A stretch of DNA of 32,780 nucleotides from Tannerellaceae bacterium (GTDB lineage Bacteria; Bacteroidota; Bacteroidia; Bacteroidales; Tannerellaceae). A program made the position numbers and the translations under genes. The notes beneath the pieces are model-generated. The model searched no databases. It was not told where the DNA came from and worked only from the letters and a program-made list of their open reading frames with translations. Positions 1 to 32,145 of this stretch are shown here, one piece after another. Position 1 is the stretch's first letter, and each line of letters begins with the position of its first letter. Location of the stretch: assembly GCA_031259845.1 (NCBI GenBank), contig JAIRKZ010000077.1:1-32780 (forward strand), given 5' to 3'.

Positions 1-210
1 TTTGAAAAAAGAAGCCATTCGGAGCCAGTACGAAACCCCCAATTTGAAAAAAGGAACCATTCGGAGCCTGTACGAAACCCCCAATTTGAAAAAAGGAGCC
101 ATTCGGATCCTGTACGAAACCTCCAATTTGAAAAAAGGAGCCATCCGGAGCCTGTACGAAACCCCCAATTTGAAAAAAGGAGCCATTCGGAGCCAGTACG
201 AAACCTCCGC
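1..210. repeat. 42-bp tandem repeat array, five units
   Basis: Five head-to-tail units begin at 1, 43, 85, 127 and 169. Each is exactly 42 bp and differs from the others at only a few bases. There are no spacers, so this is not CRISPR. Since 42 is a multiple of three and the unit is poor in stops, five of the six frames stay open. On the plus strand a TTG-started frame (2-274) would give a 14-residue repeat containing AIRSLYETPN, but nothing else supports a protein. The array touches the window edge, so more units may precede it. A second 42-bp array (32146-32324) shares its skeleton when both are read on the minus strand. Confidence 0.95.
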
Positions 211-30624: not shown

Positions 30625-30903
30625 CTATGCCAGCTTCCTGTATCTGCTTCCGCTTACGGCTTCAGAGGGACAGGCGGCATCTCTCAGGTGTCTGTTCAGC
30701 AAAACCTCCTGTCTTTTCTTTTCGAACTTCTGGCAGCGTCTTTCCGGCACGGTTTTCCAACAACCTGTCACTAACTTTTTTGCCATCTCCCGGTGCAGTT
30801 CCTTAAAGTAAATCCTGTTGTCTGCCGGCTCCTCTCCTGCCGGATTTTCGCTGCATCCTGCCGTGAATAAGGCCGGCGAGAGGATTAGTCGAAGGAATAC
30901 ATA
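30625..30903 (-). pseudogene. Lipoprotein remnant without a start codon
   Basis: Read on the minus strand, the frame gives YVFLRLILSPALFTAGC and then SENPAGEEPADNRIYFKE, a convincing lipoprotein signal peptide with Cys encoded at 30853-30855 and a typical polar mature start. No ATG, GTG or TTG precedes it in a usable position, and its beginning overlaps the last codons of the DUF6261 gene. The frame continues with an unusually Arg/Lys/Cys-rich stretch to TAG at 30625-30627, where a frameshift seems likely. An internal ATG (30786) would give a 53-residue peptide of no recognised family. I read it as a truncated gene. The remaining DNA to the GH92 promoter shows nothing else. Confidence 0.45.
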
Positions 30904-32048
30904 TTGGGGAATACCATTCCGGAGAGGCGGGCCAGCACGGCGCCGTCTTTCTCTATCCGGGCTTCGGCGGGGCCTTCGCTGAGGAGGGGGGAGAGGAAGT
31001 AGCGGTTGGCCGAGGGCGGGGCCGCTTCGAGGGCTGCGGGCGTTTGATTGCCGTCGCCGTCTGCTTCCATCTTAAAGCCTGCTATGGGGAGGATGGCTTC
31101 TTCCGCAGCGCTTTTGAGTATGAGGGAGCCGCCTGTGGCTGCGGGGTAGAGGGCTGCGGCAAAGGCTGCGGCGTCGGTCGCCGTAACGTACATCACTTCC
31201 CCGCTTTCGGGCACCTCCTGCGAGGCTACGTGGAAGAGGGGGATGGAGGGAGTATCGCCGCCGCCGGCATCATCGTCGTCGCCGTCGCCGGGTTTGTTTT
31301 TCGAGCCGTCGGAGGATGCGCCGGTGATGCGGGCGTAGATATTACTGTAATTATGTATCACGAAGTTGATATGGTCTATGATAGCCCCGAAGGTTTCCAT
31401 GCCGGCCGTATTGCCGCTTACTTTGGCTACGGCGTAGAAGCCGTCCAACGCTTCGGTAAAGTCGGTAAAAGCCTTGTCGGTAAGGGGGCGTATGTACGCC
31501 ATATTGCCTTCGAGGATGGCTTCGCCCTGGCTATGCTCGCGTTCTTTGTAAAGCGCCTTGAAAGCATCATTGTACTGTTCCAGGGCGTCTGTTGCCGCCG
31601 TGAGGGCAAGGGTGGTAACGTACGGGGCGTAAGCGGGGCGGCGGAGGTCTTGAATCAGGTTCTTGATAAGGGCGCTGGCCTGGGTCATGGACGCAGAGGA
31701 AACAGCCTTGAAATTATTCATCACCAGGGAGAGCTTCACGGCAGCCTGGCGTACGGCAGGGTCTTTGCTGAAGGCGGCCGTCTCTACCGTTCCCCGGATC
31801 AGGCGGTACTGGTCGAGGCGGTCTTTGTTGGCCTCGTTAATGTCGCCCGTTTCGGCAGACTTCTGGCTGCGTTTGTAGATGTCGTCTTCCTTTTGGAATA
31901 CTGTGACGAATACCGTCCAGAGCTTGAGCAAATCGCCTAAGGAAGCGATGCGTTCCTGCACAAAGGAGATGATTTCATCGTAAAACTCATAATGGTCGCC
32001 ATTCCTTACCCGGTAGATGAGCTTGTGAAATTTGTTAACCGTCTTCAT
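30885..32048 (-). CDS. DUF6261 family protein
   Basis: The 387-residue protein resembles the DUF6261 family, found in Bacteroidales and of unknown function. Residues 1-242 are largely helical, beginning MKTVNKFHKLIYRVRNGDHYEFY and containing long amphipathic helices (for example 100-140 and 160-240). Residues 245-268 form a Gly/Asp/Lys linker with an acidic run (DGDDDDAGGGD). Residues 269-387 are an Ala/Gly-rich, probably beta-rich, C-terminal domain that I do not recognise. No signal peptide is seen. The start at 32048 is preferred because the family begins there; an extension to 32126 is in frame but Phe/Lys-rich and unlike it. The gene is G+C-rich, like GH92. A 42-bp repeat array begins about 100 bp upstream. 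Confidence 0.75.
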   Translation of the reverse strand: MKTVNKFHKLIYRVRNGDHYEFYDEIISFVQERIASLGDLLKLWTVFVTVFQKEDDIYKRSQKSAETGDINEANKDRLDQYRLIRGTVETAAFSKDPAVRQAAVKLSLVMNNFKAVSSASMTQASALIKNLIQDLRRPAYAPYVTTLALTAATDALEQYNDAFKALYKEREHSQGEAILEGNMAYIRPLTDKAFTDFTEALDGFYAVAKVSGNTAGMETFGAIIDHINFVIHNYSNIYARITGASSDGSKNKPGDGDDDDAGGGDTPSIPLFHVASQEVPESGEVMYVTATDAAAFAAALYPAATGGSLILKSAAEEAILPIAGFKMEADGDGNQTPAALEAAPPSANRYFLSPLLSEGPAEARIEKDGAVLARLSGMVFPNMYSFD

Positions 32049-32145
32049 AATAATGCTTTTTAAAAATTCTGTAATTTTAGTGATAAAAGTAACGCTTTTT
32101 TTTAAGAAAACACTTCTTTCGCACAAAAAAAATCATAATAATACT

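Follow-up and report, generated by a model that had tools for sequence, protein, structure and literature searches.

DUF6261 genes and a second protein family of Bacteroidota adjoin tandem arrays whose period is nearly fixed and whose sequence drifts

We found that genes of the Pfam family DUF6261 (PF19775) adjoin tandem arrays with a period of about 42 bp, and that genes of a second protein family, here called f230, adjoin arrays with a period of 21 bp. Both pairings recur in distant Bacteroidota, where the period is kept and the unit sequence is not. Linkage to the genes, the locking of period to family and an excess of dyad symmetry are computed facts. From these we tentatively propose, at a little short of an even chance, that the array next to the DUF6261 gene of the stretch analysed here forms with that gene one of many units made of a gene and its private array. 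With the same reserve, we suggest that the arrays would serve as phased double-stranded DNA sites, with the protein encoded next to them as cognate partner.

The window, that is, the whole stretch of DNA analysed, is an entire contig of 32,780 nucleotides (G000:C62) from a genome of 3.66 Mb in 204 contigs. It holds the following features:

1..205, minus strand: array A (TRF: period 42, 4.9 copies, 93% matches), truncated at the contig start
30885..32048, minus strand: DUF6261 (PF19775) gene, 387 aa, Pfam E 1.2e-30 (open frame 30885-32126)
32049..32145, minus strand: spacer of 97 bp and expected core promoter region, from array B to the DUF6261 start codon
32146..32324, minus strand: array B (TRF: period 42, 4.3 copies, 95% matches)

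TRF thus returned, for both arrays, the period of exactly 42 bp that a sequence-only reading of the window had claimed. The units stand head to tail, contiguous and without spacers, and a CRISPR-like array was rejected because unique spacers between the repeats are absent. The DUF6261 protein scored 106.9 bits, above the Pfam gathering score of 27, and array B, which ends 97 bp upstream of the ATG of its gene, is the private array of that gene, with no full-length copy found elsewhere in the window's genome. Array A has close copies (86-95% identical) on contigs C119, C50, C136 and C33 of the same genome, those on the first three every one at a contig start, and weaker matches on C42 and C98. 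Compared with 58 gene-linked units, it was closest to the array of the C33 DUF6261 gene (L035; 39/42), and judging by this likeness array A appears to be a dispersed copy of the array 5' of that gene. Elsewhere in the window, a nearly perfect inverted repeat (24 nt, 4-nt loop; TAGGAACTGTCCAATAATTAGACA / TGTCTAATTATTGGACAGTTCTTA; 281-332) lies between array A and a MacB/FtsX-type permease gene at 431 and is possibly a terminator or an element remnant (the terminator scan covered one stretch of the window). An 11-C run close to the contig end (32768-32778) looks like an assembly artefact.

Arrays A and B had been described as members of one repeat family on the strength of 23 matches in 42 positions. 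We reproduced this agreement, with its strand and skeleton, at the best circular register, but the accompanying chance expectation of 10-11 holds for one fixed register, whereas in shuffles the maximum over 84 registers and strands centres on 17-18. At least 23 matches were reached by 25 of 5,000 dinucleotide shuffles, 15 of 5,000 mononucleotide shuffles and 17 of 5,000 random 42-mers from the window (p 0.003-0.005 for the shuffles, at best register and strand). Units from other species match array A equally well or better: six of the 58 DUF6261-linked units reach at least 23, array B ranks sixth and two of the six come from other species (L087 with 26, L101 with 24). Given the level on which shuffles centre and the performance of these foreign units, the resemblance is slight and counts as weak evidence of kinship. 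The conserved skeleton failed as a mark of the family, since 600 random pairs of 42-class units had a mean best identity of 0.435 versus 0.420 when shuffled; by eye, the GGTTTC..GAA skeleton is common to only a few arrays of the window's genome. The features that the arrays do have in common are period, dyad symmetry and DUF6261 adjacency. The wider proposal of dispersed, fast-evolving arrays of near-fixed period, homogenised separately at each locus, was borne out in the window's genome and its relatives.

Because the arrays on C33 and C98 and array B lie just upstream of DUF6261 genes, we searched for this family. The window's genome contained 19 matches, 18 of them above the Pfam cut-off, compared with none in 14 control genomes, and 13 of the 19 adjoined an array with a period of 41-43 bp. 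Of the other six, L028 and L045 are truncated at a contig end, L044 is a short fragment, and L034, L038 and L043 have no array. Overall, 28 of the 60 genomes searched, among them the window's own, contained DUF6261, and one had as many as 44 matches. Loci were picked by score and from four chosen genomes rather than at random (three named relatives, retrieved by protein, are all Tannerellaceae MAGs), leaving 85 after duplicate removal, and 58 of these non-redundant loci had an adjacent array of 40-43 bp, with a period of 42 in 33, 41 in 19, 43 in 5 and 40 in 1. The array lay upstream in 48 of 67 loci of subfamily I, one of which also had an array downstream. In subfamily II, defined by an NEEW/NEEL/NQEW motif near the start (truncated copies default to subfamily I), it lay downstream of the stop codon in 10 of 12 loci and upstream in none. 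One ortholog group (EISRPSFRLVRDGEHYDYH type; L034, L061, L065, L066, L071, L110) had an array in none of six loci and could be an array-independent form. No array was present at 27 of the 85 loci, the relevant flank being cut by a contig end in 5 of these, and none of the four DUF6261 loci fetched from G007, a congeneric genome that is 99% complete, had one. Across a sample of the phylum, DUF6261 was found in 12 of 392 genomes, and 10 of 20 loci (L158-L177) carried a 41/42-bp array, all upstream; nine of these come from outside the taxonomic family to which the window belongs, four comprise no more than about 2.4 copies and two, both from one genome, are near-identical.

In G010, a genome of the window's genus, period-21 arrays adjoin genes whose products, some 230 aa long, have no Pfam match; these proteins constitute f230:

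G010 tiles L123, L128, L132 and L137, and loci L178-L253: f230 loci (upstream arrays)

An upstream array was present at 49 of 53 non-redundant f230 loci, a set that omits fragments under 150 aa, with a period of 21 in 48 cases and 22 in one; five of these arrays overlap the open frame where it extends in the 5' direction. Among the four loci with no array, three lie at a contig edge (L187, L194, L214), leaving L192 as a true exception. Twelve of 40 relatives contain the family, as do 2 of 296 genomes from the phylum. A broader profile had matches in 6 of 392 genomes, and among 17 loci outside the window's genome it revealed a 21-bp array upstream in 10, three of them already counted (the new ones representing 7 of 14 further loci), and downstream in two (L269, L271), with five lacking a 21-bp array. 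Four f230 proteins had no match in Pfam at E up to 0.1, and profile comparison indicated that DUF6261 and f230 are unrelated.

Each class of array was enriched at its own gene family when other genes served as the control, open frames overlapping an array being excluded from these. In a 400-kb sample of G010, the 40-43-bp class lay within 400 bp of 5 of 7 DUF6261 genes, 1 of 4 f230 genes and 21 of the 270 others (for DUF6261, Fisher 9e-5), and arrays of 20-22 bp lay within 400 bp of 4 of 4 f230 genes, 0 of 7 DUF6261 genes and 16 of 270 others (2e-5). The corresponding counts in 400 kb of the window's genome were 2 of 4 DUF6261 genes versus 7 of 243 others for the longer period (p 0.007), and 0 of 4 and 4 of 243 for the shorter. 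The arrays near other genes also imply that many arrays adjoin neither DUF6261 nor f230. Periods were clustered: among 107 arrays of 15-70 bp, in a sample biased towards DUF6261 loci, 20 fell at 21-23 and 78 at 40-43. A crude count over both 400-kb samples placed 7 of 41 arrays inside a long open frame, which the repeats themselves may have opened, and the others in intergenic positions or at the edge of a stretch.

Such arrays might be passive minisatellites, produced by slippage and gene conversion near promoters, their link to genes reflecting co-duplication or a permissive site. Their mostly intergenic position, span of about 2 to 39 copies, fast evolution and occasional occurrence near other genes are all consistent with this, as are tandem repeats known from Porphyromonas gingivalis, which belongs to the order Bacteroidales. 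The BrickBuilt and MITEPgRS/MITE464 elements of that species contain dispersed 23- and 41-nt tandem direct repeats, located inside MITEs with IS5-type ends and also found at assembly gaps, and as dispersed, short-period arrays with an assembly-gap position these are, from the part of the account consulted, the nearest described repeats to those reported here (PMC4596501). That part of the account names no gene-family partner, whereas here the home arrays belong to DUF6261 or f230. Slippage also leaves unexplained why the period should be locked to the family (21 in 48 of 49 f230 arrays, 40-43 in DUF6261), why particular genes are enriched and why dyads are in excess, and we consider a purely passive origin quite unlikely.

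Unit sequences are nearly unrelated between loci. Pairs of 21-class units had a mean best identity of 0.475 versus 0.464 when shuffled, close to the result for the 42-class, and even where the proteins of two DUF6261 paralogues were 60-84% identical (12 pairs), the arrays were alike at p 0.05 in only three: L035/L042 (proteins 84% identical, arrays 27/41, p 0.005), L032/L064 (p 0.045) and L033/L049 (p 0.04). The likeness was not kept in L078/L088, with proteins 78% identical. Dyad symmetry, by comparison with shuffled units, was in clear excess, with a mean best score of 6.66 of 9 versus 5.72 over 58 DUF6261 arrays (z 13.1) and 5.98 versus 5.11 over 47 of the 49 f230 arrays (z 8.9), and the 42-class has a second, weaker dyad at the half period of 21 bp (4.29 versus 3.74, z 4.3). 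Positions within 42-class dyads were also less variable (130/1,746) than those elsewhere (235/2,294). Taken singly, only 23 of 98 arrays have a dyad at p 0.05 or better, the near-dyad core of the array B unit, TTCTGACCTGGTCGGAA, scoring 7 of 9 (p 0.083 taken alone). Compensatory changes within dyads were not in excess (23 double changes versus 22.9 expected).

A TAnnTTTG box, which we take to be the Bacteroidota -7 element, was found between array and ATG at 31 of 47 upstream DUF6261 arrays, with 4.35 occurrences expected, and in 24 of the 31 it stood 40-51 nt before the ATG. For f230 the figures were 9 of 44 versus 2.5 expected, and the spacer of the window (32049..32145; L029) has no exact box. 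A box in this position places the array outside an mRNA started there, and the downstream arrays of subfamily II mean that control of a promoter cannot be the role common to all. Both observations, the first from a search confined to the interval between array and gene, also count against an RNA-based reading modelled on type III toxin-antitoxin systems, in which transcripts of the array would supply repeat RNAs that bind the adjacent gene's protein. In its favour, the layout recalls ToxIN: in the portion of the literature consulted, ToxIN repeats differ in sequence and length between clusters, much as here a short tandem array adjoins a protein gene, commonly at its 5' side, with repeats particular to a protein group (PMC8860590). 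The dyads could, moreover, fold as hairpins. Predicted RNA folding nevertheless revealed no significant strand preference (the sense strand folded more stably in 20 of 48 and in 3 of 10 cases), and imperfect dyad pairs comprised 12 G-T and 8 A-C, with no significant bias towards G-U. Membership of type III toxin-antitoxin systems, whose array lies between promoter and toxin gene, was rejected because here, in the interval searched, the promoter-like box mostly stands between array and gene and subfamily II arrays are downstream, and a ToxN/CptN/TenpN-type endoribonuclease because the window protein matched no toxin family in Pfam, five proteins matched no family in PADLOC and the core is predicted to be all-helical. 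Overall, we give a repeat-RNA mechanism only a small chance.

Some arrays distant from the two families resembled those beside them. When 17 dispersed 42-class arrays were compared with 58 home units using an ad hoc circular score, 10 had a clear best match to a home array of the same genome:

Window's genome, array A and the arrays on C119, C50 and C136 (L001-L004): home array L035
Window's genome, array on C42 (L006): home array L037
Window's genome, array on C160 (L025): home array L036
G010, arrays at L124 and L137: home array L077
G010, array at L128: home array L099
G010, array at L133: home array L092

The C160 array may itself be a home array, truncated at a contig end. Four other dispersed arrays best matched units of other species, and the remaining L119 and both L135 arrays had weak best scores (13-15 versus shuffled maxima of 9-12). 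Among dispersed arrays of the 21-class (21-23 bp), two of 10 matched a home unit and eight matched no G010 f230 home unit examined. Dispersed arrays with periods of 22-23 were observed near other genes (L120:17150-17581, L132:1899-2498, L143:13551-13635 and L153:8636-8771); the L120 array matches an f230 array of the same odd period, 22, and the L132 array matches none examined. In G010, a 21-bp array between hisF and hisIE (L127:3169-3351) is clearly a gain: the hisF stop and the hisIE motif lie 278 nt apart there, versus 22-78 nt in the 11 other genomes with both ends located, which lack the array (over the 18 loci of this junction, the hisF motif was missed in three and the hisI motif in three).

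Matches of dispersed arrays to home arrays, the gain at hisF-hisIE and the up to 44 family matches per genome would be expected if DUF6261 and f230 proteins copied or moved the arrays, with home arrays seeding the dispersed ones. REP/REPIN sequences and their RAYT genes offer a precedent, at least in the part of that work consulted, as multicopy palindromic intergenic repeats that flank a partner gene with which co-evolution has been proposed (PMC3116915), and here too repeats both adjoin the partner gene and lie dispersed in the same genome. They differ from ours in having an HUH transposase and inverted pairs, whereas our repeats form tandem arrays in which the period is kept and the sequence is free. 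Membership of the REP/RAYT systems was rejected because the Y1/HUH transposase domain is absent from the window DUF6261 protein and four f230 proteins in Pfam, and the lack of a match to any other catalytic family argues against mobilization more generally, as do the eight of 10 dispersed 21-23-bp arrays with no home among the G010 units examined. Exact-match searches revealed no sign of target-site duplication (direct flanking repeats of at least 9 bp at 1 of 146 arrays versus 0.95 expected) and no excess of terminal inverted repeats of at least 9 nt (2 of 19 dispersed arrays versus 1.62 expected); on these counts, a MITE with an internal minisatellite was also rejected. We regard movement of the arrays by their partner proteins as unlikely.

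In Pfam at E up to 0.001, the window DUF6261 protein matched PF19775 alone, and no transposase, Rep or toxin family. It is predicted to consist of an all-helical domain of about 240 aa, an acidic/Gly linker predicted to be disordered and a poorly modelled, beta-rich C-terminal part of about 110 aa. The AlphaFold2 model (four sequences) had a mean pLDDT of 68.4 and a pTM of 0.41, with 10-residue pLDDT means of 67-94 over residues 21 to 220 and 33-72 past the linker. Fold comparison returned generic helical bundles, which are uninformative, and matched no DNA-binding fold. In L028, L030, L032, L036 and L045, the C-terminal 110 or so residues are nearly identical and the helical part diverges more, which suggests gene conversion of the C-terminal part. 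A tblastn search with L117 (DUF6261) and L128 (f230) had no match in 72,556 plasmid records.

Iteron repeats are often placed near a rep gene, and an iteron replicon has a Rep initiator with winged-helix domains and is carried on a plasmid with an origin. They are direct repeats of mostly 17-22 bp, recognized by a sequence-specific protein whose cooperativity depends on helical phase, according to the part of the source consulted (PMC4980987). Our pairs differ from these in that the proteins scanned matched no Rep family in Pfam and the two compared with the plasmid collection matched nothing there, in occurring many times per genome, and in their unit length of 21 or 40-43 bp and richness in dyads. 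An iteron-like layout is nonetheless what we favour for array B and its counterparts. The spacing of 21 and 42 bp, the dyads and the lack of strand bias together lead us to infer that the arrays act as double-stranded DNA, in which 21 and 42 bp would correspond to two and four helical turns, with the dyads all facing the same side of the double helix. The neighbouring gene's product, singly or as an oligomer, would assemble on these dyads, and the result would be a self-recognizing pair of repeat and protein, acting locally and on dispersed copies. For the role of such a complex, regulation and DNA architecture seem to us likelier than transposition.

The arrays evolve far more rapidly than the proteins, which is difficult to reconcile with a simple, fixed code of recognition. 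A bolder version of the double-stranded DNA reading, which we find doubtful, is that the pairs represent a new self-recognizing class of repeat and protein in Bacteroidota, in which the family sets the geometry (a period of 21 bp in f230 and of about 42 bp in DUF6261, with dyads aligned along one side of the helix) and the letters are rewritten at each locus. Recognition or the writing of arrays would then proceed through DNA geometry, dyad structure or a nucleic-acid copy and not through a sequence code encoded in the protein. We found no description of this pairing of array and gene family in the literature searched, a search that was not exhaustive. The pairing is set apart from the known systems considered by the defining features that it fails, iteron replicons being a possible exception, and its novelty is provisional. 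Together, these results tie DUF6261, an uncharacterised Pfam family, and f230 to a non-coding partner, making the function of both testable, and they raise the question of how a family holds the repeat length of its partner DNA near constant across a phylum while the sequence drifts.
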